35,368 nt of DNA from a virus: positions 1 through 35,368 of the IMG/VR virus record IMGVR_UViG_3300037193_001819, one strand, 5' to 3'. Of the stretch, positions 881 through 22,931 are shown in pieces. The notes beneath the pieces are model-generated. The model did no database searches and was not told the DNA's origin. It saw only the letters and a program-made list of their open reading frames with translations. Each line of letters begins with the position of its first letter. Positions within the stretch are counted from its first letter, which is position 1. Both the position numbers and the translations under genes were made by a program.

Positions 881-2939
881 CGCCTATGTGTCGCTGATTC
901 CGACGTTCAAGGGCGGCCGCAAGGCCATCGAGGACGAATTCGAGGGACCCGCCGAGGACGGCGGCAAGAAGTCCGGCGAGGCCTTCGGCGAAGGCTTCGG
1001 CGGCGCCTTCAAGGGCATGCTCGCCGCGGGCGCGATCTTCGGCGGCGCCACCCTCCTCGCCGGCGCGTTCAGCCTCGCCATGGAGCAGGCCGACCTGCCC
1101 GGCATCATGAAATCCCAGTTCGGCCTCTCCGAGGAAGCGGCAGCCGCCTCCGCCGAGACGGCCGCCGCCGTCTACGCGAACGGGTGGGGCGCCTCCCTCG
1201 GCGAGGTCGGCAAGGCCGTCGGCGAGGTCCAGCGGGCACTCGACCAGCTCGGCCAGACCGGCGACGTCGAGTCCCTGACCAGCAACGCGCAGGCGCTCGC
1301 GGACACGTTCGGCCAGGACGTCACCTCGGTCATCAACTCCGCCTCCCAGCTGGTCAAGACCGGCCTGGTGCCCGACATGACCTCGGCGCTGGACCTCATG
1401 GCCGTGGGATTCCAAAAGGGACTCGACTCCGGCGGCGACCTGCTCGACACGCTGACCGAGTACTCGGTCCAGTTCCAGACCCTCGGCCTCGACGCGCCGA
1501 CCGCGCTCGGCCTCATGAACCAGGGCCTCGCGGCCGGCGCCCGCAACTCGGACCTCCTCGCGGACGCCATCAAGGAGTTCGCGATCCGCAGCATCGACGG
1601 GTCGGAGACCACCGCGGCAGGGTTCGAGGCCATCGGCCTGTCCGCCGAGGAGATGACGGGCATCTTCGCGCGCGGCGGCCCCGAAGCTGCCGCAGCTTTC
1701 GACACCGTCCTCGACCGGCTACGCGAGATGGAGGACCCGGTCGCCCGCGACGCGGCCGCCGTCGCCCTGTTCGGCACGCAGGCCGAAGACCTGAACGAGA
1801 GCCTCTACGCCCTCGACCCGTCCGAGGCCGCCACCGGCCTCGGCGAAGTCGCCGGCGCCGCACAGGACGTCTCCAACACCGTCGGCGGCGGCCTCCAGGC
1901 CCAAGTCGACACCCTCAGCCGCTCCTTCAACGACGGCCTGGCCGACGCCCTGTCGATCCTCATGCCGCTGTTCGAGGTGCTGCTGGCCATCATCAAGCCG
2001 CTGCTGCCGCTGCTGATCCCCCTGGCGATCGCCATCGGCGTCCTCGTCGTCGTCCAGTGGGCGTGGAACGCCGCGCTGGCGGCCTCGCCGATCACGTGGA
2101 TCATCCTCGGCATCGTGGCGCTGATCGCCATCATCATCCTGCTCGTCGTCCACTGGGACACGGTCGTCGCCGCGCTCGGCGTCGCCTGGGACTGGATCAA
2201 AGAGAAGGCAATCGTCGTCTGGGGAGCCATCAAGGACTTCTTCGTCATGATCGGCACCGCCATCGCGGACTTCTTCATCATGATCTGGAACTCCATCAAG
2301 GACTTCTTCGTCGGCATCTGGAACGCGATCGTTGCCTACGTGCAGCTCAAGATCGCCCAGTTCCTGGCGATCGTGGAGTTCCTGGGCTCCCTCCCCGGCA
2401 AAGTCGGCGCGTGGTTCCAGGGCGTCTACAACGCCGCGAAGGAGAAACTGAACTCGCTGGTCAACTGGGTCAAGGACATCCCCGACAAGATCATGTCCGC
2501 CCTCGGCGACCTCGGCTCGCTGCTCAAGGACGCGGGCCGGCAGATCCTCCAAGGCCTGCTCGACGGCATCGAGTCGATGTGGAACTCGGTCCAGTCGAAG
2601 TTCTCCGACCTCACCTCCTCCATCCCCGACTGGAAGGGACCCGAAGACACCGACAAGCGGCTCCTTCGCCCCGCCGGCCGCTGGATCATCGGCAGCCTCG
2701 AAGACGGCATGGACGACGAGATCCCCAACATCGAATCGAAGCTCGCCGGTCTCACCACCGACATCGGCATGTCCATGACGCCCCACCGCAGCGTCTACGG
2801 CGGCCAGACCGCCGCGCTCGCGGATGAGGACCGCGCCCTCCTTCGCGATCTCGCGCAGCAGCGCAACCGCGTCGACGTCCGCCTCGGCGCCAACCTCACC
2901 TCAGCAACGCAACGCGAGTACGCAATGGACGTGTCCTAA
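858..2939 (+). CDS. Tape measure protein
   Basis: A 693-residue protein that sets tail length and is ejected with the DNA. GTG at 858 is chosen because GAAAGGAG lies 5 bases before it and the following residues (TKAEIASAYVSLIPTFKGG) are the usual N-terminus of actinophage tape measures. Residues about 40-75 are Gly/Ala-rich and hydrophobic. Two strongly hydrophobic segments follow at about 365-395 and 410-435, then Trp-rich amphipathic repeats of the type WxxIKDFFVxIxxAI. The start overlaps the end of the long chaperone form by 23 bases. By the usual 0.15 nm per residue the tail would be roughly 100 nm, which is short for the group; this is inference. Confidence 0.93.
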   Translation: MTKAEIASAYVSLIPTFKGGRKAIEDEFEGPAEDGGKKSGEAFGEGFGGAFKGMLAAGAIFGGATLLAGAFSLAMEQADLPGIMKSQFGLSEEAAAASAETAAAVYANGWGASLGEVGKAVGEVQRALDQLGQTGDVESLTSNAQALADTFGQDVTSVINSASQLVKTGLVPDMTSALDLMAVGFQKGLDSGGDLLDTLTEYSVQFQTLGLDAPTALGLMNQGLAAGARNSDLLADAIKEFAIRSIDGSETTAAGFEAIGLSAEEMTGIFARGGPEAAAAFDTVLDRLREMEDPVARDAAAVALFGTQAEDLNESLYALDPSEAATGLGEVAGAAQDVSNTVGGGLQAQVDTLSRSFNDGLADALSILMPLFEVLLAIIKPLLPLLIPLAIAIGVLVVVQWAWNAALAASPITWIILGIVALIAIIILLVVHWDTVVAALGVAWDWIKEKAIVVWGAIKDFFVMIGTAIADFFIMIWNSIKDFFVGIWNAIVAYVQLKIAQFLAIVEFLGSLPGKVGAWFQGVYNAAKEKLNSLVNWVKDIPDKIMSALGDLGSLLKDAGRQILQGLLDGIESMWNSVQSKFSDLTSSIPDWKGPEDTDKRLLRPAGRWIIGSLEDGMDDEIPNIESKLAGLTTDIGMSMTPHRSVYGGQTAALADEDRALLRDLAQQRNRVDVRLGANLTSATQREYAMDVS

Positions 2940-3796
2940 TGGCGCTCATCGACGGTCAGATCCAGATCGCCCGCGAGGGCCTGCCCACGATCACCCTCAA
3001 CCAGGGCACGCCCTACGAGGTCACCAGGTTCAACCCGTGGGACCGCGGCGTCCGGGCCGACCAGGGTGGCGACATCCCATGGGGCGACGGCGAATGGTCG
3101 GGCGCCGAATGGCGCACCGCCGCCTCCATCCCCCTCGAGGTGGAGATGGACGAGGGGACCTGGGCCGCCCTCATGCAGGTGTACTGGCCCCTCGACGCCG
3201 CCCTGGCCCCCGTCAGAACCGGCCCGGAATGCGAGATCACCTGGGGCGCTGGCGGCACCGAGTACCTGATGTACGGGCGCCCGCGCGGCGCCACCATGGT
3301 CGCGCACAGCCTCGCGCATGGCACCGCGCGCGTGACCTCCTCGCTGTTCTGCCTCGACCCGGCCATCTACTCCGCGGTCGAGCACTCGGTCGAGATGGGC
3401 CTGCTGTACCGCACCGGAGGCGTGTCCATTCCGATGCTCGTCCCGGTCGTGTCGACCTCGGCCGTCGCCGATGGCGAAGTCGCCGTCACCAACGCCGGAA
3501 CGGGCCTCGCGCGGCTGCTGCTGCGCATCACCGGGCCTGTATCGCGGCCGCGCGTCTCGGTGGTCACCGACACGACCGTCCAGACGCTCTACCTCGACAC
3601 CGTGCTCGGCGAAAACGACTGGATCGACATCGACACCGTCCGCAAGTCCATCGTGCTCAACGGCTCCGTGACGCGCCTGGCAGACCAGTACGGGGACTGG
3701 CCGCTCCTGCTACCCGGCGCCTCGCTGATCCGCTTCGAGTCCGACGTCTACGAACCCCTCGCTCGACTCACCGCGCGCTGGCGCGACACCTATTAG
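2939..3796 (+). CDS. Distal tail (Dit-like) minor tail protein
   Basis: A 285-residue protein whose ATG shares a base with the TAA stop of the tape measure gene (TAATG). First gene after the tape measure, the normal position of the distal tail protein that links the tube to the tip. The N-terminal part (residues 1-140: ITLNQGTPYEVTRFNPWDRGVR, later IPWGDGEWSGAEWR) and the beta-rich C-terminal part (SIVLNGSVTRLADQYGDWPLLLPGAS) match the two-domain plan of Dit proteins, where the second domain is a galectin-like insertion. No catalytic motif is visible. Confidence 0.78.
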   Translation: MALIDGQIQIAREGLPTITLNQGTPYEVTRFNPWDRGVRADQGGDIPWGDGEWSGAEWRTAASIPLEVEMDEGTWAALMQVYWPLDAALAPVRTGPECEITWGAGGTEYLMYGRPRGATMVAHSLAHGTARVTSSLFCLDPAIYSAVEHSVEMGLLYRTGGVSIPMLVPVVSTSAVADGEVAVTNAGTGLARLLLRITGPVSRPRVSVVTDTTVQTLYLDTVLGENDWIDIDTVRKSIVLNGSVTRLADQYGDWPLLLPGASLIRFESDVYEPLARLTARWRDTY

Positions 3797-11249: not shown

Positions 11250-11367
11250 GGGTCTCTCCTGTTCTCGCGGATGGGAGAGGGAGGCCCGGGAGCTACTTGG
11301 CGGTGGAACCCGGGCCGCCCGACTAGGCGTTTCGGCAGGCGTTCTGGATGACGTATTACTCAGATTA

Positions 11368-11401
11368 CAGGGTACCCTGCACCTTTGCAATAGGGTACCC
11401 T
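11368..11401. promoter_or_regulatory. Two palindromic operators containing GGTACC upstream of a small HTH gene
   Basis: CAGGGTACCCTG (11368-11379) is a perfect 12-bp palindrome; AGGGTACCCT (11392-11401) repeats it, centre to centre 23 bp. The second one ends 6 bases before the ATG of the HTH gene, over the likely transcription start. The spacing of about two helical turns suits two dimers on one face of the DNA. They lie in the intergenic region shared by the divergent DUF2637 and HTH genes. The binding protein is not known; autoregulation by the HTH protein is inferred. Confidence 0.7.
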
Positions 11402-11407
11402 GTAGGA

Positions 11408-12995: not shown

Positions 12996-13304
12996 ATGGC
13001 AGCACCCAGCGTACGGGCCGAGAGCCCACCCGAGCAAGACGACCGCCGCCTCATCGCCGAGCGGTTCGACCGCCCCCACTGGCTCCGCATCTACGAGACC
13101 GACGACCCAAGCGTGGCAGTACTGCGCCGCTACCGAGTCGCCGCCTCTCCGCCCTACGATGTCGTCGCCGAGATCGCGCACGCCGGCGGCGTCGTCTCCA
13201 AGTTCTCGTGGGACGAATGGCACCGGGTTAAGGCCTTGAGCGACTGGCGCGCTCCCGTCGAGGCATGGATCAGAGCCAAGATCGCCGAGGACTGGGCGTC
13301 ATGA
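12996..13304 (+). CDS. Unknown small protein, first of a two-gene unit divergent from XRE-DUF397
   Basis: A 102-residue protein not recognised. It reads as a small alpha/beta fold: HWLRIYETDDPSVAVLRRYRVAASPPYDVVAEIAHAGGVVSKFSWDEWHRVKAL. ATG 12996 has GGAG 7 bases before it. The stop overlaps the next start by 4 bases, so the pair is co-translated. The 230-base gap to the XRE gene must hold promoters for both directions. Linked function with the XRE-DUF397 pair is possible but not shown. Confidence 0.7.
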   Translation: MAAPSVRAESPPEQDDRRLIAERFDRPHWLRIYETDDPSVAVLRRYRVAASPPYDVVAEIAHAGGVVSKFSWDEWHRVKALSDWRAPVEAWIRAKIAEDWAS

Positions 13305-13537
13305 TCGCGCGCGTGTCGAAGGCGACCGCGAGCCTGGCCGAGGACGTCCAGCACCGACACCGGGCCGACGACGAAGGACTGTGCGCGTTCCACCGGAAGT
13401 ACTTCGGAGTTCGCATCCCCTTCGGCGAATGCGCGCCGTGGCGGCTCGCCCAGAAAGTCATCGTCGCCTACGACGAGCAGCAGGTCCGGTCGCTGCCGCA
13501 GGGGCCGGTGGCAGGCCAGTTCTGGGCCAAGACCTAA
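13301..13537 (+). CDS. Unknown small basic protein
   Basis: A 78-residue protein, ATG overlapping the previous stop (ATGA). Sequence features: SKATASLAEDVQHRHRADDEGLCAFHRKYFG and FGECAPWRLAQKVIVAYDEQQVRSL, rich in His, Arg and Trp; one pair of Cys. No family is recognised. Two hairpins follow the stop, so the unit ends here. Confidence 0.65.
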   Translation: MIARVSKATASLAEDVQHRHRADDEGLCAFHRKYFGVRIPFGECAPWRLAQKVIVAYDEQQVRSLPQGPVAGQFWAKT

Positions 13538-13542
13538 CCCAG

Positions 13543-13572
13543 GGCCGCCGCGCCGGTGGGGGAGCGGCGGCC
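13543..13572. terminator. Hairpin directly after the small-gene pair
   Basis: GGCCGCCGC (13543-13551) and GCGGCGGCC (13564-13572), 9-bp stem, 12-nt loop, 6 bases after the stop codon. Probable terminator of the rightward pair. Confidence 0.65.
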
Positions 13573-13625
13573 TACCTGGACCCGGGAGCTGGCTCTCCCG
13601 ATGAGGGCGGCACGCCACCGCCCGA

Positions 13626-13660
13626 GGGCCGCCGCGCTTTGGAAGCGGGCGCGGCGGCCC
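13626..13660. terminator. Second GC-rich hairpin
   Basis: GGGCCGCCGCGC (13626-13637) and GCGCGGCGGCCC (13649-13660) form a perfect 12-bp stem with 11-nt loop. It shares the core GGGCCGCCGCG with the hairpin at 13543. The region 13538-13800 holds no convincing gene, only these structures. Confidence 0.65.
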
Positions 13661-13756
13661 GAACTCCATCTCACCCTATGTAAACAAGTCGATGCCTGAA
13701 AGTCCGATCTCGAGGGAACCCACGACTCGAACGCTTCGGCGCTTCGGCGTCGGAGA

Positions 13757-13794
13757 AGCCCGGCCGCAACGGTCCCACCCTGCGCGGCCGGGCT
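13757..13794 (+). terminator. Third hairpin, followed by CTTTCG
   Basis: AGCCCGGCCGC (13757-13767) and GCGGCCGGGCT (13784-13794), 11-bp stem, followed by CTTTCGTG. It is the last strong structure before the attachment site and may protect attP and the integrase gene from rightward transcription. Confidence 0.7.
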
Positions 13795-13810
13795 CTTTCG
13801 TGCCTCCGGG

Positions 13811-13838
13811 CGTTGCAGATCCGTTGCACATGAGACCC
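13811..13838. repeat. Integrase arm-type repeat, left of attP core
   Basis: A 28-base element built of two CGTTGC units 11 bases apart followed by a TGAGA box. The same arrangement, with 23 of 28 bases equal, is found on the other side of the core at 14039-14066. Paired repeats flanking a tRNA-derived core are the hallmark of arm-type binding sites of tyrosine integrases. Confidence 0.68.
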
Positions 13839-13930
13839 AGATACCCACTGACATAGGCATACACGAGCGTACAGATTCCCCAGGTCATTGGGAGTGCGGC
13901 GACTTCCACCGCAGGCCAACAACCCAGGCA

Positions 13931-13973
13931 TTCATAAGAAAAGGTCAGGGGTTCGAATCCCCTAAGCTCCACA
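13931..13973. other. attP: attP core: 3' end of a tRNA-type gene
   Basis: 13947-13971 reads as a T-arm (stem AGGGG, loop TTCGAAT, stem CCCCT), acceptor 3' strand AAGCTCC and discriminator A, with GGTC before it. No matching 5' half is present upstream, so this is not a complete gene but the part that a phage carries to rebuild a tRNA (or tmRNA) after integration. It lies just beyond the end of the integrase gene and between two matching arm repeats. Which tRNA is the target cannot be said; the acceptor end AGCTCCA also resembles tmRNA. The crossover region is expected inside this segment. Confidence 0.82.
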
Positions 13974-14015
13974 CATATCGACCCGGACCGCAGGTCAGGC
14001 TCGTATAGAGACACA

Positions 14016-14044
14016 GCAACGGCCGGGCAATGCCCGGCCGTTGC
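14016..14044 (-). terminator. Long palindromic hairpin after the integrase gene
   Basis: GCAACGGCCGGGC (14016-14028) and GCCCGGCCGTTGC (14032-14044) form a perfect 13-bp stem with a 3-nt loop (AAT). It lies 28 bases after the integrase stop in the leftward direction and would end the int transcript before it crosses attP. Its right side overlaps the start of the right arm repeat. Confidence 0.75.
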
Positions 14045-14066
14045 GCATTCGTTGCACCTGAGAACC
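14039..14066. repeat. Integrase arm-type repeat, right of attP core
   Basis: Second copy of the element at 13811-13838, in the same orientation: CGTTGC, then TCGTTGCAC with 11-base phase, then TGAGA and CC. It ends 6 bases from the integrase stop codon. Together the two copies define the outer arms of attP. Confidence 0.68.
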
Positions 14067-14071
14067 GGCCA

Positions 14072-15295
14072 TCAGGCCGCAAGCGCCATCTCCCGCGCCC
14101 TCCCGAGCGCGCTGGCCACCTCCCCGATCCGGGCCGGGAACAGGTCGGTGTACACGTCCAACGTCATCGTCGCGGTCGCGTGCCCCATCGCCGCCTGGAG
14201 GGTCTTCACGTCGGCGCCCTCGGCCACGCTCAGGCTCGCGAACGAGTGCCTGAGCGTATGCGGGGTAGTCCCGGCTGGGAGCTTCGCCGCCTTCACGGCC
14301 GGCCGGAAGACCCGCTCGCGCCAGTTGTACGCCACGATCAAGTCGCCCTTGGGGGAGGGGAACATGAGATCCTCCTCGTCGAGCCCGGACCTGAGCACCT
14401 TCAGCTCCATCACCAAGAACTCCGGGATGCCGACCACTCTGATCTTGCCGCCCTTCGGCAGGCCGAGGGTCGGCCTCCCGTCCTCCCCTTCGATCACGGC
14501 CTCGGTCACGTGCAGCTCGTGCGCGTCGAGGTCGACCGATCCGGCGCGCAGCGCGATCGCCTCACCGATGCGCAGACCGCAGTACGCCAGCGTCAGGACC
14601 ATGACCCGGTAGACGTTCGCCATCGGCTTCGGCTTGCCGTAGGCGGTCCTAAGGCCGGCGACCGCGTCCGCCAGTGCAGTGATCTGCCGGTGGTCGAGAT
14701 ACAGCCGCTTGCCCTTGGCGACGGTCGGCAGTGTGTCGAGCGCCCGGATCGGGTTCTCCGCGATCCGTTGTGACTTCACCGCCCACGTCATGACGCCGAG
14801 CATCACGTGGTGGATGCTCTGCACCCGCGAGGCGCCGACGACGCGTTTCTTGGACCCTTGCAGGCCAGGCTGTTTGTGGAGACTCGAGAGCCATGTCGCG
14901 TAGTCGCCGTAAGTCACCGCACCCACGGAGGTCAGCCCCCAACGGGGGAGTACGTAGCCGTCGAGGATCTGTCGGTACAGGCGCTTGGTCTTGGGCGCCC
15001 ACTTCGGCGTCTTCGCCGTGAACCACTCCTCGGCGACCTCAGCGAGTTTGGTCCTGGCGGCCTTGGGGTCGCGGTAGATTCCGGCCTCGAGGTCGGCGGC
15101 GATCTTGTCACGCAGCGCCTCCGCTTCGGGGACCGTGCGCCGAAGCTCGGAACGGGTCTTCCCCGGGTTGTCGGGGTCAGGCCACCGCACCTGCCACCGC
15201 ATCGGCGGCATCCGCTTTGCCTTCTTCGCCTCGGTGACCTTCTTCCGGTAGGCGGCCTCTTTCATCCTGTCGTGGATCCAGGCCCTCGCCATCAT
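14072..15295 (-). CDS. int: Tyrosine integrase
   Basis: A 407-residue site-specific recombinase. Residues 1-75 are the arm-binding part (RWQVRWPDPDNPGKTRSELRRTV, Arg/Lys-rich start). Residues 85-190 are the core-binding SAM-like domain (EVAEEWFTAKTPKWAPKTKRLYRQILDGYVLPRWG). Catalytic residues: R242 (YCGLRIGEAIAL), H346-x-x-R349 (TPHTLRHSFAS), H372 (MGHATATMTLDVY) and nucleophile Y382. All key residues are present, so it should be active. GAAGGAG lies so close to the first ATG that the second ATG (15292) is the more likely start. The start overlaps the stop of the upstream membrane gene; both are one leftward operon. attP lies just downstream. Confidence 0.95.
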   Translation of the reverse strand: MMARAWIHDRMKEAAYRKKVTEAKKAKRMPPMRWQVRWPDPDNPGKTRSELRRTVPEAEALRDKIAADLEAGIYRDPKAARTKLAEVAEEWFTAKTPKWAPKTKRLYRQILDGYVLPRWGLTSVGAVTYGDYATWLSSLHKQPGLQGSKKRVVGASRVQSIHHVMLGVMTWAVKSQRIAENPIRALDTLPTVAKGKRLYLDHRQITALADAVAGLRTAYGKPKPMANVYRVMVLTLAYCGLRIGEAIALRAGSVDLDAHELHVTEAVIEGEDGRPTLGLPKGGKIRVVGIPEFLVMELKVLRSGLDEEDLMFPSPKGDLIVAYNWRERVFRPAVKAAKLPAGTTPHTLRHSFASLSVAEGADVKTLQAAMGHATATMTLDVYTDLFPARIGEVASALGRAREMALAA

Positions 15296-15876
15296 GCTCC
15301 TTCGTAGTCGTCGTTGCGCTGGTTCCGGAGCCGGCGGACACCGCGCGCTGGGGTGTTGGCGGCGAGGGAGTGCAGCGTGGTGCTTCCCATCGCGGCCGTG
15401 TCGTCGTGTTCTCCGCCGAGCTGGCGGTTGATGCCCTCGATGGCCCGGCTAGCTTCTCCCAGTCGGCGCTCCCGTTCGTTGGCGTCGAGCCGCGCCGCGA
15501 GGTCGCGCAGCGCTTCCTCGAAGTGCTTCGAGGCATCCGTGATCGCGGCTCGCTGCTCATCGCGGAGGTCGTCGACGGCGGCCAGCACGATCGCCAGCGT
15601 CTCGGCGAGCGCTCGGTTCTGCTGCCGCAGCCGGTGGTGTTCGTGTCCGCTCCCGCAGTGCCGCATCCATGAGATGAGGCCGACGCCGGCGAGAATCCCG
15701 ACGGCAAGGTAGACGCTCTCGATGCGATCGGGGGCGAGGGCGACGAAGATCGCGAGCGGCGCGAGCATCGCGATCGCGATGAGGACGCCGATGCCGGTGC
15801 GGTGCCGCAGGTCTCGGCGCTCACGTTCGGCGAGAATGGACGGGTCGGGGGTCGATGTTGGACTGAAGTCACTCAT
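15292..15876 (-). CDS. Membrane protein with C-terminal coiled coil, co-transcribed with int
   Basis: A 194-residue protein not assigned to a family. Residues 28-47 (GVLIAIAMLAPLAIFVALAP) and 53-70 (SVYLAVGILAGVGLISWM) are two membrane helices; residues 80-150 form a charged helical region (RQQNRALAETLAIVLAAVDDLRDEQ, FEEALRDLAARLDANERERRL). The N-terminus and the long C-terminal part would be cytoplasmic. The last codons overlap the integrase start, so it should be made together with integrase, that is, when lysogeny is set up or kept. Superinfection exclusion is a reasonable but unproven idea. Confidence 0.75.
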   Translation of the reverse strand: MSDFSPTSTPDPSILAERERRDLRHRTGIGVLIAIAMLAPLAIFVALAPDRIESVYLAVGILAGVGLISWMRHCGSGHEHHRLRQQNRALAETLAIVLAAVDDLRDEQRAAITDASKHFEEALRDLAARLDANERERRLGEASRAIEGINRQLGGEHDDTAAMGSTTLHSLAANTPARGVRRLRNQRNDDYEGA

Positions 15877-15903
15877 GGCTCACCCGCATGTGTTGACGTG
15901 TAC

Positions 15904-15931
15904 TAGCTATCTGGTCCCACCCATCCGTAAA
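15904..15931 (-). promoter_or_regulatory. Possible leftward promoter for membrane protein and int
   Basis: On the minus strand TTTACG (complement of 15926-15931) and TAGCTA (15904-15909) are 16 bases apart, 28 bases before the start of the membrane gene. Match to consensus is moderate. The rest of the gap 15877-16040 shows no gene. Confidence 0.35.
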
Positions 15932-16040
15932 CCGTAATCAATCGTCCACAGAGGGTGAAATTATCCAAACGGGCGTTCCAAAACGACCGGTCAGAGGATG
16001 GACAGGCACACGTAAATGTGATAGACGTCACTCAAATGGG

Positions 16041-16502
16041 TTAGTTTTCGCGATCCCGGCGGCGTCGAGCCGCTCGTTCGCGTAGCAGCGATTCCAGCAA
16101 CTGGAGCTGTGCCACGACTTCTCTGGCGTCGTCGGCGTCGGTGTCCTCGTCCCGAAGGACGCCCATTAGAGACCTGACCGCAGAGCGGATCTCAGCGTCG
16201 CCGGCGACTGGCACGGAACCGTCCCAGCCCAGGATGCGCAACGGCTCCTCCGGGGGCCAGCCGTTGCCCTCGCAGACGGCGAGAAGGTTGTCGGCGTCGG
16301 GGATCGACTGCGGGCCGGCGACGCCCCTCCAGCGGTTGAACTGTGTGCGACTGATGCCGCCGGCCTTCGCGATCTTGGTGATGCTCCGGCCGCGCGCACG
16401 CTCTTCTTCGACGCGTTGGTTGAGGTAGGCGACGAGTTCAGGGTTGCGAATCCAGGGGACCCCGTCCGGGTCCTCGCTGGCGGTGGCAGCCTCATGCGTC
16501 AC
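16041..16502 (-). CDS. Immunity repressor candidate (HTH protein)
   Basis: A 153-residue DNA-binding protein. An HTH lies at about residues 35-57 (RSITKIAKAGGISRTQFNRWRGVAG), followed by a domain with LGWDGSVPVAGDAEIRSAVRSLMGVL and a basic C-terminus (LLRERAARRRRDREN). GTG 16502 is taken as start because TATACT (a near-perfect -10) lies exactly 7 bases upstream, predicting a leaderless mRNA; longer upstream readings would run through the operators. It is divergent from the excisionase-like gene with palindromic operators between them, the classical layout of a temperate switch. The XRE-DUF5753 protein is the alternative repressor. Confidence 0.75.
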   Translation of the reverse strand: MTHEAATASEDPDGVPWIRNPELVAYLNQRVEEERARGRSITKIAKAGGISRTQFNRWRGVAGPQSIPDADNLLAVCEGNGWPPEEPLRILGWDGSVPVAGDAEIRSAVRSLMGVLRDEDTDADDAREVVAQLQLLESLLRERAARRRRDREN

Positions 16503-16508
16503 CGCCTC

Positions 16509-16531
16509 AGTATAGATGTCATATACATCTA
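16509..16531 (-). promoter_or_regulatory. Repressor promoter with overlapping palindrome
   Basis: TATACT (complement of 16509-16514) is the -10; the -35 (TTGGTA or GATTGG, depending on spacing) is weak. A perfect palindrome, TAGATGT and ACATCTA with a 5-base spacer (16513-16531), covers the space between the two boxes. A protein bound here would block the repressor promoter. The arms differ from the TTGACGTAT-type operators nearby, so another regulator may be used. Confidence 0.6.
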
Positions 16532-16551
16532 CCAATCGATCGTCACGGACA

Positions 16552-16571
16552 CTGGCATACACATACGTCAG
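16552..16571. promoter_or_regulatory. Weak fourth copy of the immunity operator
   Basis: CTGGCATACACATACGTCAG keeps one good half-site (ATACGTCAG) and a degenerate second half of the 20-bp operator seen at 16649, 16684 and 16715. It lies 50-70 bases upstream of the repressor start, between the two promoters. Confidence 0.45.
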
Positions 16572-16648
16572 CCTAGAGCAAGTTGTCGACATTAGGAAGC
16601 CCTCAGATGGCCTTTTGTCGCGTACCCGACTCAGCCGAACGGTCAGAA

Positions 16649-16734
16649 CTGACAGATCGATACATCAACTTGGCCCGGAGCTCTTGACAGATCGATACGT
16701 CAACTGCCTATGCTTTGACGTATGGATACGTCAA
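16649..16734. promoter_or_regulatory. Three 20-bp palindromic operators before the excisionase-like gene
   Basis: Sites: 16649-16668 (CTGACAGATCGATACATCAA), 16684-16703 (TTGACAGATCGATACGTCAA) and 16715-16734 (TTGACGTATGGATACGTCAA). The last is a perfect 9-bp inverted repeat with a 2-base spacer. Start-to-start spacing is 35 and 31 bases. The middle site covers the -35 box and the last covers the start codon of the excisionase gene, so binding would shut the early operon. The likely ligand is the repressor of this window. Confidence 0.8.
16684..16714 (+). promoter_or_regulatory. Early rightward promoter
   Basis: A consensus -35 (TTGACA, 16684-16689) and a -10 TATGCT (16709-16714), 19 bases apart (17 if CCTATG is taken). 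The expected start of transcription is at or one base before ATG 16722, so the first gene would be leaderless. Operators overlap both the -35 and the start site. Confidence 0.65.
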
Positions 16735-16949
16735 CGCCCGTCGAGCTCGCGGCCAAGGAGCTTTTGACCCCGGCCGAGGTCGAGATCGTCTTCGGTTTCA
16801 AGCCCAACACGCTCCGGCAGTGGCGCTATGAGGGCCACGGTCCCCGCTACGTGAAGACGATGCCGGGCCGATCGGGCCTGGTGATGTACCGCCGCAGCGA
16901 CATTGACGCGTGGCTGGACGACTGCACCGTCCAGCCGGCCGCGGCCTGA
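16722..16949 (+). CDS. xis: Excisionase-like winged-helix protein
   Basis: A 75-residue protein with a MerR/Xis-type winged helix: LLTPAEVEIVFGFKPNTLRQWRYEGHGPRYVKT then VMYRRSDIDAWLDD, the standard form of actinophage excisionases (HTH_17). Such a protein bends attP DNA and turns integrase toward excision; as first gene of the early operon it could also act as a Cro-like regulator. No ribosome site is present; the start codon coincides with the predicted transcription start and lies inside an operator. It is far (about 1.4 kb) from int and on the other strand, so the two are separately controlled. Confidence 0.82.
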   Translation: MDTSTPVELAAKELLTPAEVEIVFGFKPNTLRQWRYEGHGPRYVKTMPGRSGLVMYRRSDIDAWLDDCTVQPAAA

Positions 16950-16953
16950 AACG

Positions 16954-17030
16954 TCCCGGCTGGCGCGGAGGGGTGGCCAGCCGGGATCAGGACCCGCCCG
17001 CATAGGGCACCTGGGCGGGTCCACCCCTCG
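16954..17030 (+). ncRNA. Structured RNA element: two hairpins with long-range pairing
   Basis: Hairpin 1: TCCCGGCTGG (16954-16963) with CCAGCCGGGA (16977-16986), perfect 10 bp, 13-nt loop. Hairpin 2: GGACCCGCCC (16990-16999) with GGGCGGGTCC (17013-17022), perfect 10 bp, 13-nt loop. The loop of hairpin 1 contains GAGGGGTGG (16968-16976), which is complementary over 9 bases to CCACCCCTC (17021-17029) just after hairpin 2. This allows a pseudoknot, or a switch in which one pairing opens the other by two bases. It starts 5 bases after the xis stop and ends 1 base before a tRNA-like fold. It may be a terminator, attenuator or processing signal; no known RNA family is recognised. Confidence 0.6.
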
Positions 17031-17031
17031 A

Positions 17032-17110
17032 CGCGACGTAGAGCAGCACGGTAGCTCGCCGACTACTCCACATAGGTCGGAGGTCGCCGGTTCAAATCCG
17101 GCCGTCGCTA
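17032..17110 (+). tRNA. tRNA-like cloverleaf with expanded anticodon loop
   Basis: All arms can be drawn. Acceptor CGCGACG/CGTCGCT: 6 of 7 pairs, first pair C-T. TA at positions 8-9. D-stem GAGC/GCTC with loop AGCACGGTA, including the conserved GG. Anticodon stem CCGAC/GTCGG. Variable loop AGGTC. T-stem GCCGG/CCGGC with loop TTCAAAT. Discriminator A followed by CGA instead of CCA. The anticodon loop is 12 nt (17064-17075, TACTCCACATAG) instead of 7. If TA and TA pair with one G bulged, a 7-nt loop CTCCACA with anticodon CCA (Trp) remains. It may be a decayed or unusual phage tRNA, or a tRNA mimic that guides RNA processing. Not an attachment core, since no copy of it exists elsewhere in the window. 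Confidence 0.55.
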
Positions 17111-17196
17111 CGACAGAACGAGAGATGCCCCGGCCGATGCCACGGCGCGGGGCTGATCTCCAGGACAGCAGAAACCTCTTGAAAGGAAAAGTCCTG

Positions 17197-18096
17197 ATGA
17201 TCGACATCGACACTACCGAACTCGCCGCCGAGGCGGCCACCGAGCCCGTTGAGGACCGCCACACGCGGCAGCGCCGCGAGCGGCACGTCGCGCTCATGGC
17301 CGGCCTCGAAGAGCTGACCGATCTCCTCGCCGACGCCGGCCCCGGCTCGGACATGGCAGGCGACTGGGGACGCGTGACCGTCCACGTCGGCATCTACGAC
17401 GGCACCATCGAGGAACGGATCGCCCGCCTGATCACGGTCGGCCACGCACTCGATGCCGAGATCATCGAGCGCGAGCACCACGACACCGTCCACTTCCGTG
17501 CTGATCGGGAGTTCTCGGAGGAGCTGGAATACACCTGCGCGATCATCGCCACCGGTGACGAGATCGCCGTGGCCCGCGCGGCGCTGGCCGCCGACGCTGC
17601 CACCGAGCGGATCACCGTCGACTACCGCGTCGACCACGGCGCCTCGCGCTATACCGTCATCGCTGCCCTCGCGCAGTTCGGGGTCGACGCGATCCTCGAG
17701 TCCCCCGCCGGCCTCAGCGACGACGCCGCGAACCGCGCCGACGTGATCGTCACCGAGACCGGCGACAAGATCAAGGTCGAGCGCTACATCGAGCACTACC
17801 TCCTGCCCGCGCCCGCCGACTGCGTCTCGGTCGATGCGTACGCCGAGGCCCTCGCCATGTGGGTCAAGGGGACTCCCGAGTTCGAGATCCCCTGCCCGGC
17901 CCGGCCGGTCCACGCAGCGCGCGCGATCCGATCCGATGGGTCGGTCCTCACCGCGTACTCGTGCGGCCACTGCTCCGACGACGCCGCGAAGCTGACCGAT
18001 CAGGGCTACACCGTCGTGTGGCTCAACCCCGGCCAGGTCCCCACGGGACCCGAGATCGCGTGCGGCCTGCACGCCGAGATGGCAGGTGCCCGATGA
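17197..18096 (+). CDS. Unknown early protein
   Basis: A 299-residue acidic protein without a recognised family. ATG 17197 follows GAAAGGAA by about 9 bases; upstream codons in the same frame run through the tRNA-like element and are not coding. Residues 20-60 are helical (HTRQRRERHVALMAGLEELTDLLADA); the middle is alpha/beta (VTVHVGIYDGTIEERIARLITVGHALDAEIIEREHHDTVHF, IAVARAALAADAATERITVDYRVD); a short Cys pair stands near the end (YSCGHCSDDAAKL). First gene of the long early operon after xis. It may be an early regulatory or host-takeover protein; this is only position-based. Confidence 0.78.
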   Translation: MIDIDTTELAAEAATEPVEDRHTRQRRERHVALMAGLEELTDLLADAGPGSDMAGDWGRVTVHVGIYDGTIEERIARLITVGHALDAEIIEREHHDTVHFRADREFSEELEYTCAIIATGDEIAVARAALAADAATERITVDYRVDHGASRYTVIAALAQFGVDAILESPAGLSDDAANRADVIVTETGDKIKVERYIEHYLLPAPADCVSVDAYAEALAMWVKGTPEFEIPCPARPVHAARAIRSDGSVLTAYSCGHCSDDAAKLTDQGYTVVWLNPGQVPTGPEIACGLHAEMAGAR

Positions 18097-18368
18097 TGCT
18101 GCGCCGCAACCCCAACCGCCGTCACCCGCGCGCGACCGCGCGCGGCCCGGTCATCACCGTCGCGCCCGCCGAGCACTACGCGGGCGAGATCGTGCGCATC
18201 ACCCGCGACGACGGCAGCATCGACACCGTCCGGATCATCGCCGTGTGGACCGCGGCATCCTCGTGCATCCGCATGCTCACCGTCGCCCACCACCCGCACT
18301 CGATCCGCACCTTCGCCGTCCGCGCCGACTCGGTCGTTACCGACGATGCCTCCGGCGGTGAGCGATGA
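18093..18368 (+). CDS. Unknown small early protein
   Basis: A 91-residue protein; ATG overlaps the previous stop (ATGATG, the second ATG is also possible). After a basic, Arg/Pro-rich start (LRRNPNRRHPRATARG) comes a small beta domain (GEIVRITRDDGSIDTVRIIAVWTAASSCIRMLTV) ending in VRADSVVTDD. Not recognised; could be an SH3-like fold. Confidence 0.7.
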   Translation: MMLRRNPNRRHPRATARGPVITVAPAEHYAGEIVRITRDDGSIDTVRIIAVWTAASSCIRMLTVAHHPHSIRTFAVRADSVVTDDASGGER

Positions 18369-18685
18369 GCACCCAGACCCCCGAAGCGACCGCGACCCCG
18401 ACCGAGCTGGCACAGCTGATCTATTCGGGCGGCCTGGCCGTCCGCCGCCGCGTCGCCCACATCGAGACGCCGTCGGCCTCGGCCAACCTCGTCGCCGTCC
18501 TCGACGGCATCATCACCGCCGCCCAGGAACTGCGGGGCGTCGCCGCCCACCTCGCCGGGGCCGCGCAGCCCACGGACGCCGAGGAGCCCGAACCGCCCGT
18601 CGACGCCGAGGAGCCCGAACCGCTTACGGGCGCATGGCTCGAGGTCACCGAGGGCCGCACGTACGGGATCGGCGGTGTGCAGTGA
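18365..18685 (+). CDS. Unknown small early protein with DAEEPEP repeat
   Basis: A 106-residue protein; start overlaps the previous stop (ATGA). Residues 12-67 are helical and Ala-rich (PTELAQLIYSGGLAVRRRVAHIE, ANLVAVLDGIITAAQELRG); the acidic stretch holds the tandem repeat DAEEPEPPV/DAEEPEPLT. No family recognised. Confidence 0.7.
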   Translation: MSTQTPEATATPTELAQLIYSGGLAVRRRVAHIETPSASANLVAVLDGIITAAQELRGVAAHLAGAAQPTDAEEPEPPVDAEEPEPLTGAWLEVTEGRTYGIGGVQ

Positions 18686-18786
18686 TCGCCTTCGCCGTCG
18701 CGGCCGCCGCCGTGCTCACCGTCGCCGGACCCGCCGCCCTCCTCGCCGCCGTCCTGTGGCCGTCCTACACCGGGAGGCACCAGTGA
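18682..18786 (+). CDS. Very small membrane protein
   Basis: A 34-residue protein starting at GTG 18682 (overlaps the previous stop, GTGA) and ending at the TGA that overlaps the next start. Almost the whole chain is one membrane helix (IAFAVAAAAVLTVAGPAALLAAVLW), followed by PSYTGRHQ. The tight fit between two genes and codon phase support it; no function is known. Confidence 0.55.
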   Translation: MIAFAVAAAAVLTVAGPAALLAAVLWPSYTGRHQ

Positions 18787-19046
18787 TCTCCCCGATTGCA
18801 TTCACCACGTTGTACGCGGTCCTGGCCGACGTGCCCGCGCACATGTTCGTCCTGGCCTGCCTCGCCTCGCTCGCGCTCGGCTTCATCCTCGGCGTCGCCG
18901 CCGAGTGGCAGCTCATCAAGCCGTGGGTCAACCTCGCACTTCTGCAGTCCGCTGTCCTCCACGGCCCGTTGAAGCGCACCGGCTTCGCCGCCGGCCCCGA
19001 CGACGCCGCCGAGCGCGACCGCCTCGCGCACCGACACCAGACCTGA
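18783..19046 (+). CDS. Small membrane protein
   Basis: An 87-residue protein, GTG start 18783 with GGGAGG 6 bases upstream. A hydrophobic segment spans about residues 9-40 (LYAVLADVPAHMFVLACLASLALGFILGVAAEW), followed by a soluble tail (QLIKPWVNLALLQSAVLHGPLKRTGF). Not recognised. Confidence 0.68.
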   Translation: MISPIAFTTLYAVLADVPAHMFVLACLASLALGFILGVAAEWQLIKPWVNLALLQSAVLHGPLKRTGFAAGPDDAAERDRLAHRHQT

Positions 19047-19054
19047 CACCCACG

Positions 19055-19083
19055 CGGGGCGCGCGCTGGCGCCGCGCCCCGCC
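19055..19083. terminator. GC-rich hairpin inside the early operon
   Basis: GCGGGGCGC (19055-19063) and GCGCCCCGC (19075-19083), 9-bp stem, 11-nt loop, in one of the few gaps of the operon (19047-19105). May be a partial terminator or an RNA processing site. Confidence 0.55.
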
Positions 19084-19105
19084 ACTCCCGAACGGAGACA
19101 ACGAC

Positions 19106-19621
19106 ATGAACGACAGCAGCCGCCCCCGATTCGCCTCCTGTGAGGACACCGTCGGCGCCCGCCACCACGAGCTTGCCTCCGCATGGGGGGTGACCTGGTG
19201 CGAGTGCCGCCACGCCTTTGTCGTGGAGCAGCACGACCCCGGCCACGACGGCATCGACGCCGACAGTCTCCCCGTGTGGTGGAACCGCGCCCTGCGCGAG
19301 GCCATCGACGCCAACCCCGATGCGGGCTTCGACCTGGCCATCGCATGGGCGCACCTGCGTATCCTCGCCCGCGATCTCGCGTCCGATGGTGAGCACGAGC
19401 GGTGGGACGAGTTCGCGCCCCGCGTGCTCGAGCTGGACGAGGCCCGCGCCGAGCAGTTCCTGCGCCTCCTCGCCACCGCGGGCATCGCCTCCGTCATCCC
19501 CTCAGCCTGGGACTACCGCGACGGCAAGGACTACTGGCACTCAGGCGACCAGTGCGGCTGCACTCTCCTGGCCGTTCGCCTCAACGCGGAGGAGTCCTCT
19601 CTCTCGCAGGCGGGGGCGTAG
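19106..19621 (+). CDS. Unknown early protein
   Basis: A 171-residue protein; ATG 19106 with CGGAGA about 8 bases upstream. Sequence is mixed and well folded in look: WGVTWCECRHAFVVEQHDPGHDG, LPVWWNRALREAIDANPDAGFDLAIAWAHLRILARDL, YWHSGDQCGCTLLAVRL. Two Cys pairs (CEC, CGC) could bind a metal. No family recognised. Starts a new group after the hairpin. Confidence 0.72.
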   Translation: MNDSSRPRFASCEDTVGARHHELASAWGVTWCECRHAFVVEQHDPGHDGIDADSLPVWWNRALREAIDANPDAGFDLAIAWAHLRILARDLASDGEHERWDEFAPRVLELDEARAEQFLRLLATAGIASVIPSAWDYRDGKDYWHSGDQCGCTLLAVRLNAEESSLSQAGA

Positions 19622-19623
19622 CC

Positions 19624-19776
19624 ATGCCCGACACCTCCACCTGCGACATGCCGGAGGGCTGCGGCGTCGCGCACGGCACCTGCGGCAGCTGCGGACAGCC
19701 CCTGGAGTTCTGCGGCGACCAGTGGTCCGGCGAGTGCGCCGACTGCCACCACGCCCACACCGAGCCGAACGGATAG
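19624..19776 (+). CDS. Small zinc-ribbon protein
   Basis: A 50-residue protein with eight Cys, among them CGSCGQP and CADCHHAH, a zinc-ribbon arrangement. ATG 19624 is 2 bases after the previous stop. The role is unknown; small zinc-binding proteins recur in this operon. Confidence 0.7.
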   Translation: MPDTSTCDMPEGCGVAHGTCGSCGQPLEFCGDQWSGECADCHHAHTEPNG

Positions 19777-19781
19777 CAGCC

Positions 19782-20033
19782 ATGGCCGACACGTACCAGC
19801 ACCACGTCGACCGTGCGCACGAGCTCCTCGACGACGTCGACCGCCTGCCCCGCCGGGATACAGACCTCAAGCGCATCGTCGTCGGCGCTGCCCGGGTGCA
19901 TGCCGCACTGGCGCACGCCGCCGCGACCCGTGAGGCCGGCGACGCGATCGTTGCCGTCCTCGACCAGATGGGCACCGCCCGCCCGCGTCGCGGCTTCATC
20001 GCCGAGGAAGTCAGGAAGGAGACTCGGCCGTGA
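19782..20033 (+). CDS. Unknown small helical protein
   Basis: An 83-residue, mostly helical protein (YQHHVDRAHELLDDVDRLPRRDTDLKRIVVGAARVHAALAHAAATREAGDAIVAVLDQM) with basic end. ATG 19782; the stop overlaps the next GTG start. Not recognised. Confidence 0.7.
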   Translation: MADTYQHHVDRAHELLDDVDRLPRRDTDLKRIVVGAARVHAALAHAAATREAGDAIVAVLDQMGTARPRRGFIAEEVRKETRP

Positions 20034-20872
20034 CCACCGCTGCACACGGCACGTACGCCAGCTACAAAGCCCGTGGCGCGGGCTGCTGCGCGCCGTGCCG
20101 CAAGGCCGGCTCCAAGTACGTCACGAACCGCGAACGCCAGATCGCCTACGGCCGCTGGAACCCCTGGACTGACGCCGCACCCGTCCGCGCCCACATCGAG
20201 CAACTGCAGGCGTCCGGTCTCGGATGGCGCAGGATCGCTGACCTCGCGGGCGTCTCCCGGAACACCGTCAACAAGATCATCTACGGCCGCAAGGGGAAGC
20301 CTCCGTCGCAGCGGGTACGGCCCGAGACGGCAACGAAGATCCTGGCCGTCGTCGCAGACCTCACGACCCTCGGCGACCATGCCCGCGTCGACGCGACCGG
20401 CACCCACCGGCGCCTCCAGGCCCTCGTCGCCATCGGGTGGTCGCAGACGAAACTCGCCGCGCGACTGGGCATCGACATCGGCAACTTCAACACGATGCTC
20501 CACCAGCGTGATGCCGTGCTGGTGGAGACCGCGCGAGCCGTCCGCGACCTCTACGAACAGCTCTGGGACACACCGCCGCGCGAGGCAACACATGGAGAGC
20601 GGCAGGCGGCGAGCCGATCGCGGAACTACGCCGCGGCCCGCGGGTGGGTGAAGCCCATGGGGTGGGACGACGACGCCATCGACAACCCCGCCGCCGAGCC
20701 GCAGAGCACCGGACCCGCCGCCCGCGTCCATCTCCCGCAGGGCGAGGAGCTCCTGACGCTCGTCCGCCTGGGCGAGACCGACGAGGCGCTCGCGATGCGT
20801 TTCGGCGTCGAAGTCATCACCGTCCAGCAGGCCCGCTACCGCGCCGCGAAGAAGGAGGCCGTAGCCGCATGA
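20030..20872 (+). CDS. Multi-HTH DNA-binding protein of actinophage type
   Basis: A 280-residue protein, GTG start with AAGGAG upstream. The start (GTYASYKARGAGCCAPCRKAGSKY) has CCxxC. HTH 1 at about residues 60-88 (LGWRRIADLAGVSRNTVNKIIYGR), HTH 2 at about 135-160 (IGWSQTKLAARLGIDIGNFNTML), and a third possible one near the C-terminus (GETDEALAMRFGVEVITVQQARYR). I recognise this plan from many actinophage 'helix-turn-helix' proteins in early operons. Likely an early transcription regulator; its sites are unknown. Confidence 0.82.
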   Translation: MTTAAHGTYASYKARGAGCCAPCRKAGSKYVTNRERQIAYGRWNPWTDAAPVRAHIEQLQASGLGWRRIADLAGVSRNTVNKIIYGRKGKPPSQRVRPETATKILAVVADLTTLGDHARVDATGTHRRLQALVAIGWSQTKLAARLGIDIGNFNTMLHQRDAVLVETARAVRDLYEQLWDTPPREATHGERQAASRSRNYAAARGWVKPMGWDDDAIDNPAAEPQSTGPAARVHLPQGEELLTLVRLGETDEALAMRFGVEVITVQQARYRAAKKEAVAA

Positions 20873-21198
20873 ACGACATAGCAACTGCCGACGACACTGC
20901 CGAGCGGGTCACGTACCCCGAGGTCGGCGCTGGCCTGCGCATCACCGTGCTCTGCCCGTGCGACACGTGGGTCGACTTCAACTTCAGCGTCGAGTCCTAC
21001 CCGCAGGAGCCCTGGCACATCATCCACCACGGTGCGACCGAAGGCTGCTGCCCCGATTGCGGTGGACCGGTCGCGGTCCCATCGTGCTCCACGACGGGGC
21101 ACGCCTGGCGCGAGTTCCGAACCCGAAGCCGCGGACCCATCACCGTCTGCCTCGTCTGCGGCCAGAAGCCGCATGTCCCCGCCAGGAGGGCCGCATGA
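20869..21198 (+). CDS. Zinc-binding early protein
   Basis: A 109-residue protein, ATGA overlap with the previous gene. Cys pairs CPC, CCPDC and CLVC, with GHAWREF between, suggest one or two zinc ribbons. Its last part (CLVCGQKPHVPARR) resembles that of the next gene (CRICGVKPHVRL), so the two may have arisen by duplication. Confidence 0.72.
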   Translation: MNDIATADDTAERVTYPEVGAGLRITVLCPCDTWVDFNFSVESYPQEPWHIIHHGATEGCCPDCGGPVAVPSCSTTGHAWREFRTRSRGPITVCLVCGQKPHVPARRAA

Positions 21199-21578
21199 GC
21201 ATCACCGAGATCGACCGCGAGGTCACCACCACTATCCGCTACCAGGCGACCTGCACCAGCTGCAGGAAGCGCACTGTCGAGTTCACCGTCGACACCGACA
21301 TCGCCGACATGTTCTCTGGCGGTTACGAGGCCGAGCGCGTCGCCGAGCTCCTCACCGACGACGAATGGACCGTCGTCGGCGACATCACCGATCTCGAGCG
21401 CGCCAGCGTGCTGTGCCCCGAGTGCCCGACCTGCGATGAGGTCGGGCACTCCTGGGCTCCCACCGTGGCCGGCGACCGGATCGGCTGCCGCATCTGCGGT
21501 GTCAAGCCGCATGTCCGGCTCACCGGCGGCGCGACCGCCAAGGGCATGGCCGAGCTGAGGATGACCGCCAGTGTCTGA
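21195..21578 (+). CDS. Zinc-binding early protein, possible paralogue of the preceding one
   Basis: A 127-residue protein; AGGAGG 6 bases before ATG 21195. Cys pairs CTSC, CPECPTC and CRIC; the C-terminal segment GHSWAP to CRICGVKPHV mirrors GHAWRE to CLVCGQKPHV of the upstream gene. The N-terminal half differs (FTVDTDIADMFSGGYEAERVAELLTDDEWT). Function unknown. Confidence 0.72.
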   Translation: MSITEIDREVTTTIRYQATCTSCRKRTVEFTVDTDIADMFSGGYEAERVAELLTDDEWTVVGDITDLERASVLCPECPTCDEVGHSWAPTVAGDRIGCRICGVKPHVRLTGGATAKGMAELRMTASV

Positions 21579-21987
21579 TCTCAAGGGACCGTGGCGGTTC
21601 CAGATCCCCGCGCCCGACGTCTGGATCGAATCCAACGGCGGGCACGGGCACTGGGCCACCACCTCCGGCGCGATCGCGTCCTGGAGGACCGCCGGGAAGC
21701 TCTACGCGCACAAGGCCCGCCTGCCGCACATCCTCCTGCCGGTCACCATTACCGCGCACGTCCACCGGACCGACAACCGCCGCGCCGACGCCGCGAACCG
21801 CTACCCGACTGCGAAGGCCGTCATCGACGGCATCGTGGACGCGGGCGTGCTCGACGACGACTCCGACCGGTACGTCACCGGCGTGATGATGAAGGCCGGC
21901 GCTCGCGTGCTGCCGCGTGAGCACCCGCGGGGGCTGCTCACCGTCGTGATCGCCATCGACCCCTCCCCGGAACGGGAGGCCGCATGA
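21571..21987 (+). CDS. RusA-like Holliday junction resolvase
   Basis: A 138-residue protein, GTG start 21571 inside the end of the previous gene. The RusA pattern is present: a beta strand with basic residues then RRADAANRYPTAKAVIDGIVDAGVLDDDSDRYV, with acidic residues D73, D86, D90 and the D95-D97 cluster standing where the catalytic Asp residues of RusA lie. The N-terminal half is more diverged (FQIPAPDVWIESNGGHGHW). It would cut branched DNA during replication or packaging. Directly before the replication initiator gene, a usual neighbour. Confidence 0.83.
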   Translation: MSDLKGPWRFQIPAPDVWIESNGGHGHWATTSGAIASWRTAGKLYAHKARLPHILLPVTITAHVHRTDNRRADAANRYPTAKAVIDGIVDAGVLDDDSDRYVTGVMMKAGARVLPREHPRGLLTVVIAIDPSPEREAA

Positions 21988-22931
21988 CGACGAAGTGGGA
22001 AGTGGTGGCGGCGCTCAAGAATTCGGGCCTGCTGCCCTCGGACCGGATCATCATGATGATGCTCGTCGACGTCGCCGACGCCGAGACCGCGTACGTCGCC
22101 GAGCAGTGGTCGCCGTCGCTCACGGAGCTGGCGAAGTGGACCGGCCTGGGCCGCTCCACCGTCGCTGCCCGCCTGGACGAGCTCGAGCGCCTGGGCTGGG
22201 TCAAGCGCGAGCGCCCCCCGACCGCGGAGGCGATCGCTCGCGGCGCCCGCACCTGCTACCACCTCGCGATCGGCGAAGCCGTCGAGAAGGTCAAGCCGCA
22301 GCGTCCCGCGAACCCGACTCGGACTAGTCCAACCGCTGGACCCGTCCAGGTATCGGACCAGGTCACGGCCGGTAGTCCAGAAGCGGGACTAGTCCAACCG
22401 CTGGATGAGGGTAGTCCAGCCGTTGGACTACCCCTAGTCCAGCCGTTGGACTCGGCTAGTCCAGCCGTTGGACACAAGAACCACCCTCCTACGGAGGGTG
22501 GTTCACCCACCAGTTCCCACCAAGAGCCCACCACTCCACCGCCTGCGGCTGCCGCCGCCGAGGAGACCCAGGCGCCGACGAAGCGAGCGAAGCAGCCCGA
22601 ACCGCACCGCGAGGACGTCGAACGGCTCTGCGCCGCACTCGCCGACCACCGCGTCCGCCTCGGCTGCAAGCGCCCCACCGTCACCGACGCGTGGCGCAAG
22701 GACGCCCGGCTCCTCATCGACGCCGACGAGGTCGACCTGGACACCGCGCTCGCGGTCCTCGACTGGTCCCAGGCCGACGACTTCTGGAAGGCGAACATCC
22801 GCGGCATCCCGAAGTTCCGCAAGCAGTTCGACACGCTCCGGCTGCGCATGGAATCGAGCCGCGGCCGCCGCCGCGCCGCCTACCAAGACCCACCGAACCG
22901 CGACGTCTCCGGCTACCGGAAGGACTTCTGA
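21984..22931 (+). CDS. Replication initiator / helicase-loading protein with internal origin repeats
   Basis: A 315-residue protein. Residues 1-95 form a winged helix (IIMMMLVDVADAETAYVAEQWSPSLTELAKWTGLGRSTVAARLDELERLGWVKRE). Residues 100-210 are a low-complexity linker encoded by repeated DNA. Residues 215-315 end with ALAVLDWSQADDFWKANIRGIPKFRKQFDTLRLRM, the C-terminal domain of phage replisome organisers that binds a DnaC-type loader. The loader gene follows directly. As in lambda O, the origin seems to lie inside the gene: seven 15-bp iteron-like repeats fall in the linker. Start ATG overlaps the RusA stop. Confidence 0.83.
   Translation: MTTKWEVVAALKNSGLLPSDRIIMMMLVDVADAETAYVAEQWSPSLTELAKWTGLGRSTVAARLDELERLGWVKRERPPTAEAIARGARTCYHLAIGEAVEKVKPQRPANPTRTSPTAGPVQVSDQVTAGSPEAGLVQPLDEGSPAVGLPLVQPLDSASPAVGHKNHPPTEGGSPTSSHQEPTTPPPAAAAAEETQAPTKRAKQPEPHREDVERLCAALADHRVRLGCKRPTVTDAWRKDARLLIDADEVDLDTALAVLDWSQADDFWKANIRGIPKFRKQFDTLRLRMESSRGRRRAAYQDPPNRDVSGYRKDF
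22327..22473. repeat. ori: Seven iteron-like repeats, candidate phage origin of replication
   Basis: Repeats of GTCCAGCCGTTGGAC (five-base inverted arms GTCCA/TGGAC around five bases) start at 22327, 22344, 22375, 22392, 22414, 22437 and 22459. The last three are identical; those at 22327 and 22392 read GTCCAACCGCTGGAC/T; those at 22344 and 22375 are degenerate. Spacing is 17, 31, 17, 22, 23 and 22 bases, near two helical turns for the last ones. Several are preceded by CTA or GTA. A perfect 11-bp inverted repeat follows at 22479-22503. Layout inside the initiator gene matches lambdoid origins. Confidence 0.82.
22479..22503. promoter_or_regulatory. Perfect 11-bp hairpin next to the iterons
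   Basis: AACCACCCTCC (22479-22489), loop TAC, GGAGGGTGGTT (22493-22503). It begins 5 bases after the last iteron and lies within coding sequence, so it is kept in addition to protein needs. It may be a cruciform or single-strand element of the origin, or a pause site. Confidence 0.62.

Follow-up and report, generated by a model that had tools for sequence, protein, structure and literature searches.

The question raised by this locus is what two strong hairpins do directly behind the first early gene of a phage, and whether the complementarity between the loop of the first and the tail of the second has any part in it. The window, which here means the whole stretch of DNA that was analysed, comprises the 35,368 bases of virus record IMGVR_UViG_3300037193_001819 and probably belongs to a temperate, GC-rich actinobacterial phage. 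Its early region is laid out as follows, with replication genes (DnaD/O-like, DnaC-like and RusA-like) lying beyond the excisionase-like gene, here called xis.

14072-15295, minus strand: integrase gene (int)
16041-16592, minus strand: divergent gene in repressor position, without family match
16651, 16686 and 16717 (span 16651-16734): three operator-like repeats, GACRKATSGATACRTCAA-like, between the divergent gene and xis
16722-16949, plus strand: xis, encoding an excisionase-like HTH protein of 75 aa (Pfam HTH_17, E 2.6e-8; PHROG 66, excisionase and transcriptional regulator, E 3e-9)
16953-16987, plus strand: hairpin H1, 16954-16964 with 16976-16986 in 11 Watson-Crick pairs, plus G16953-U16987; 11-nt loop GCGGAGGGGTG at 16965-16975
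16968-16974, plus strand: 5' side of a possible loop-tail helix, GAGGGGT, inside the H1 loop
16990-17022, plus strand: hairpin H2, 16990-16999 with 17013-17022 in 10 Watson-Crick pairs; 13-nt loop GCATAGGGCACCT at 17000-17012
17023-17029, plus strand: 3' side of the possible loop-tail helix, ACCCCTC, in the tail past H2
17032-17110, plus strand: initiator-tRNA-like gene (ARAGORN, tRNA-??? at 17032-17111; Rfam RF00005, 47.2 bits, above the gathering threshold of 29; alignment with tRNA-Met(cat) of other loci)
17124-17160, plus strand: weaker hairpin past the tRNA, with a GCCCCG...CGGGGC core (from the sequence and the fold of 17112-17200)
17197-18096, plus strand: next early gene, 299 aa, without family match, with an AAAGGA ribosome-binding site in front

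The xis-like reading frame was annotated from the ATG at 16722, which is overlapped by the third operator-like repeat; the true start is possibly slightly downstream. Next to int, at about 13940-13975 on the plus strand, lie the T arm and acceptor of a tRNA, its 3' part; a whole tRNA was not found there, and this 3' end is likely the attP core. At 11366-11404, elsewhere in the window, TACAGGGTACCCT and AGGGTACCCTGTA form a perfect inverted repeat of 13 bp around a 13-nt spacer, possibly an operator.

The hairpin element takes up 70 nt (16953-17022) of the 82-nt gap between the xis stop at 16949 and the tRNA-like gene. H1 starts at most 5 nt from the stop codon, a linker of 2-3 nt separates it from H2, and H2 ends 9 nt before the tRNA-like gene. 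Folded alone, H1 reaches -26.3 kcal/mol and H2 -23.1 kcal/mol, while the fold of the spacer as a whole reaches -51.9 kcal/mol (z -2.5) and ranks in the most stable 0.5% of the record's 90-nt windows. Perfect hairpins of at least 10 bp (loop 3-20) occur 16 times in the window, where 30 dinucleotide shuffles gave 2.0 on average, and none of these shuffles gave two such hairpins at most 20 nt apart. Given this excess, the absence of a close pair in the shuffles and the high stability rank, the adjacent hairpins are not a product of chance. The original prediction had described two perfect 10-bp hairpins with equal 13-nt loops. Two perfect hairpins do stand side by side and H2 has the form described, but H1 has 11 pairs and an 11-nt loop, its innermost C-G pair having been left out. 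A known Rfam family was rejected for the element, which matched none; only weak minus-strand matches to Pseudomon-1 and sX13, far below threshold, were returned. A repeat family within the phage was rejected as well, since a second copy is absent from the window.

Directly behind the element, from 17032, lies the tRNA-like gene, which had been overlooked in the original prediction and was also missed by a fast Rfam scan of the whole window. CCA is not encoded, and the gene ends in ACGA. Alignments placed the gene among initiator tRNA-Met genes and revealed some features of bacterial initiator tRNAs, namely A11-U24 in the D stem (G10A11G12C13/G22C23U24C25) and the C1 x U72 mismatch, while the anticodon arm lacks the three G-C pairs that adjoin the loop in such tRNAs as well as the 7-nt loop with a CAU anticodon. 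The anticodon stem is CCGAC/GTCGG and the anticodon loop, TACTCCACATAG, has 12 nt, 5 nt extra. This stem differs from the CCGGG/CCCGG of other initiator-like tRNAs at two pairs, each of which is altered on both sides with pairing kept, which argues against simple decay of the tRNA. Alternatively, it is possible that the anticodon stem-loop was replaced as a block. Phage tRNAs have been proposed to evade host anticodon nucleases via changes in the anticodon loop (PMC10264068). The tRNA with the 12-nt loop might resist nucleases, serve as a decoy or be a remnant, and it may be non-functional. With its enlarged anticodon loop, it may be an odder item than the hairpins themselves.

Homologues of the region were sought with several of its parts. 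For the spacer DNA, none was found among related records (where only the tRNA matched), phages or plasmids. Searches with xis found no homologue in viral contigs or in 50 related records, those with the integrase none in viral and genome contigs, and those with the repressor-position gene none in phages; none was found for the 299-aa gene or the DnaC-like gene either. A terminase search led to 50 related loci, in which nothing beyond the tRNA matched the xis region; relatives whose terminase is 93-95% identical do exist. A scan for the H1 stem that allowed any 3-30-nt loop returned 49 stretches, none of which held a homologue of the spacer. The closest match to the H1 stem (L082) has a similar loop and was rejected as a homologue, being without H2 and without the tRNA.

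The arrangement itself, strong hairpins followed by an initiator-like tRNA, was met again in other loci. Intact initiator-like tRNAs were found in Micromonospora phage pMLP1 (L059) and in the IMG/VR records L054/L061, L062 and L064; in L065 the tRNA is cut at the end of the stretch, and 64 of 71 RF00005 positions are matched. Four GC-rich loci, pMLP1, L054, L064 and L065, have strong hairpins that end a short distance before the initiator-like tRNA. Their spacers are unrelated in sequence, and by inspection the loop-tail match does not recur in them. Within its own locus, the stability of the 90 nt upstream of the tRNA ranks near the very top in pMLP1 (0%), L064 (0.9%) and L065 (3.7%); in L054 the rank is an unremarkable 24%, yet the hairpin is plain. 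The gene upstream encodes an HTH-like protein in pMLP1, L054 and L062, as read from the sequences without a family search. The arrangement is not universal, because L062 has the HTH-like gene and the initiator-like tRNA without strong hairpins between them. Compared with the initiator-like tRNAs of the pMLP1 type, the window copy has the same initiator-like D arm and acceptor, with strong hairpins and an HTH-like gene in front, but it differs in its 12-nt anticodon loop and in an anticodon stem that is altered yet paired. The arrangement thus recurs in several GC-rich phages without sequence conservation.

Some of these loci showed details of their own. In pMLP1 (L059, 3880-4000), three consecutive strong hairpins (z -4.4) separate tRNA-Met from the HTH-like gene, and terminase-like genes follow downstream. 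In L054 (IMG/VR 3300022917_000001, 2150-2390, minus strand), an RNA structure of about 190 nt with many branches, closed by a long stem (z -3.7), is placed between the HTH-like gene and the initiator-like tRNA, and the tRNA is its only Rfam match. A further initiator-tRNA-like sequence in L063 (IMG/VR 2511231052_000006, 3690-3760) was not called by ARAGORN and is possibly degenerate.

The element is real, and in our best reading its form is of a known type, a two-hairpin 3'-end cluster. We give a probability of about one half to the reading that the two hairpins are a compact 3'-end unit of the xis-like message, acting as a partial terminator and/or a stabilising cap, before a phage-borne tRNA-like gene. 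Observed here are the two hairpins and where they lie, a sequence resembling a tRNA, and strong hairpins that recur just upstream of initiator-like tRNAs elsewhere. A U-run directly past the stem, as in a canonical intrinsic terminator, is absent: the tails of the two hairpins are TCAGGACC and ACCCCTCG. A terminator scan likewise found no plus-strand terminator-like site in 13000-22000. Poly-U is rarely present at clusters of hairpins and is not needed there (PMC8355165). Two thirds of the identified terminator units are such clusters, whose hairpins are separated by less than 15 nt, and pairs are the commonest form; about 97% lie within 80 nt of the stop codon, and clusters are favoured at high GC, with 880 of 1187 in Mycobacterium gilvum (PMC8355165). 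For clusters without U, termination was in turn deduced computationally from RNA-seq data (Gupta and Pal 2021, PMC8355165). The element resembles these units in the distance between its hairpins (2-3 nt, where less than 15 nt is expected), in its position 4 to 73 nt past the stop (within 80 nt), in the lack of poly-U and in being GC-rich. It differs from them in that it lies in a phage and has a tRNA-like gene directly behind it.

The 9 nt between H2 and the tRNA are too few for a separate promoter, and no sigma-70-like site was found in 13000-22000; the tRNA is thus probably reached by readthrough. Since a promoter for the tRNA alone would not fit there, a complete stop at the hairpins is unlikely, and a partial terminator with a 3' cap is therefore favoured. 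Transcription would start at the operator-controlled promoter upstream of xis and cross the gene, after which the two-hairpin cluster, although without U, might slow or partly stop RNA polymerase. Readthrough transcripts would reach the tRNA and the remaining operon. A cut by RNase P at the 5' end of the tRNA could leave the hairpins as a cap, which would shield the xis mRNA from 3' exonucleases; if the tRNA is non-functional, which it may be, such a cut is doubtful. It had been claimed earlier that the hairpins stand between the first early gene and the operon and affect readthrough. Their place was borne out, the first gene being excisionase-like and downstream of the three operator-like repeats, and stable hairpins after xis could affect readthrough into the early operon. 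A role in deciding between lysis and lysogeny, claimed together with this, was not supported. If the 3'-end reading is true, the hairpin cluster and the tRNA jointly punctuate the early operon of the phage, and this would be cheap to test.

Among the other explanations, the hairpins might do no more than give the tRNA precursor a structured 5' leader, for spacing and processing, with no role in termination. The 9 nt between H2 and the tRNA, together with the similar placement in pMLP1, L054, L064 and L065, agree with such a leader. Against it, H1 begins at most 5 nt past the stop codon in the manner of terminator clusters, the altered-looking tRNA is perhaps inactive, and in L062 the tRNA has no such leader. 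On balance, this explanation is unlikely.

By analogy, the main rival, and still a live one, would be an antiterminator like the put sites of phage HK022, i.e. an RNA of about 70 nt with two stem-loops that binds RNA polymerase during its synthesis and lets terminators further along the early operon be ignored. HK022 putRNA has about 70 nt and two stem-loops, and about 270 nt separate putR from its upstream promoter start (PMC9378689). The element, with 70 nt and two stem-loops, shares this gross form, though only the form, as well as the location in an early operon, some hundreds of nt away from the promoter, and it begins about 230 nt past the last operator-like repeat before xis. On the other hand, no match to the element was found in 50,697 phage records, a collection that includes HK022, where put is unannotated in the stretch examined. 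The stems of putRNA carry bulges and a triple helix (PMC9378689), whereas those found here are perfect with large loops. The lack of an Rfam match and a different host polymerase also count against it, and we regard it as rather improbable. If true, it would be, to our knowledge, the first known protein-free antiterminator RNA in an actinophage. Another known RNA with two consecutive hairpins in the nascent transcript is the ANTAR dual-hexaloop antiterminator (PMC8934654); it was rejected because the loops here have 11 and 13 nt, as compared to six-nt loops with A at position 1 and G at position 4. Together with the two-hairpin terminator clusters and HK022 putRNA, it was already described, contrary to the statement that no RNA family has this form.

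The loop-to-tail complementarity was at the centre of the original prediction, in which the H1 loop pairs with the tail past H2, as a pseudoknot or a regulated switch controlling readthrough. The reported 9-base match, GAGGGGTGG (16968-16976) with CCACCCCTC (17021-17029), is present in the sequence, but it borrows one base from the 3' arm of H1 and two from that of H2. Its full length thus costs three stem pairs, and only 7 pairs (16968-16974 with 17023-17029) are compatible with both hairpins. These form a perfect, G/C-rich duplex of -12.0 kcal/mol. When the letters of this loop and tail were shuffled, 1.1-3.7% of trials gave a match of at least 7 nt (about 1-4% by chance given the letters); pieces drawn at random from the window gave one in 0.2-0.9%, and 2 of 88 loop/flank pairs taken from unrelated hairpins with an identical 10-bp stem also had one. 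The match is weakly significant, and weak for a 35-kb scan. H1 with H2 has -49.4 kcal/mol against -33.9 kcal/mol for the loop-tail helix with H2, a comparison that covers the nested alternative and not a pseudoknot keeping both stems. A free two-state switch is unlikely because this exclusive fold is about 15.5 kcal/mol worse, and it was rejected on energy. As for the pseudoknot, H-type pseudoknots likewise have a hairpin loop complementary to a downstream sequence; here a second long hairpin lies between the two sides, and the compatible pairing has 7 nt. With H2 inside the crossing loop almost no free nucleotides are left, 2-3 single-stranded nt having to span a helix of 11-12 bp, so the three-helix form looks strained in such a model. 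No similar pairing was noticed in the spacers of the other four loci. The match is most likely fortuitous, and a pseudoknot or regulated switch is improbable. A separate hairpin in L073 (IMG/VR 3300042982_000054, 2576-2625), of which the loop TGGGGATGA can pair through 9 nt with a sequence a few nt downstream, just before a ribosome-binding site, is by its sequence a much better candidate H-type pseudoknot than the window element.

We hold it still less probable that the 70-nt double hairpin and the loop-tail helix together form a new compact actinophage RNA element, whether pseudoknotted or a put-like antiterminator, which would decide with the odd tRNA whether early transcription passes xis. 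Least probable of all is that the inverted repeats work at the DNA level, being bound by Xis, the repressor or another protein: inverted repeats are abundant in phage early regions and operator-like repeats do lie upstream of xis, but H1 and H2 have no motif in common with each other or with those repeats, the window holds no other copy of the hairpin sequence, and GC arms of 10-11 bp placed 11-13 bp apart are unlike the form of the operators found here.
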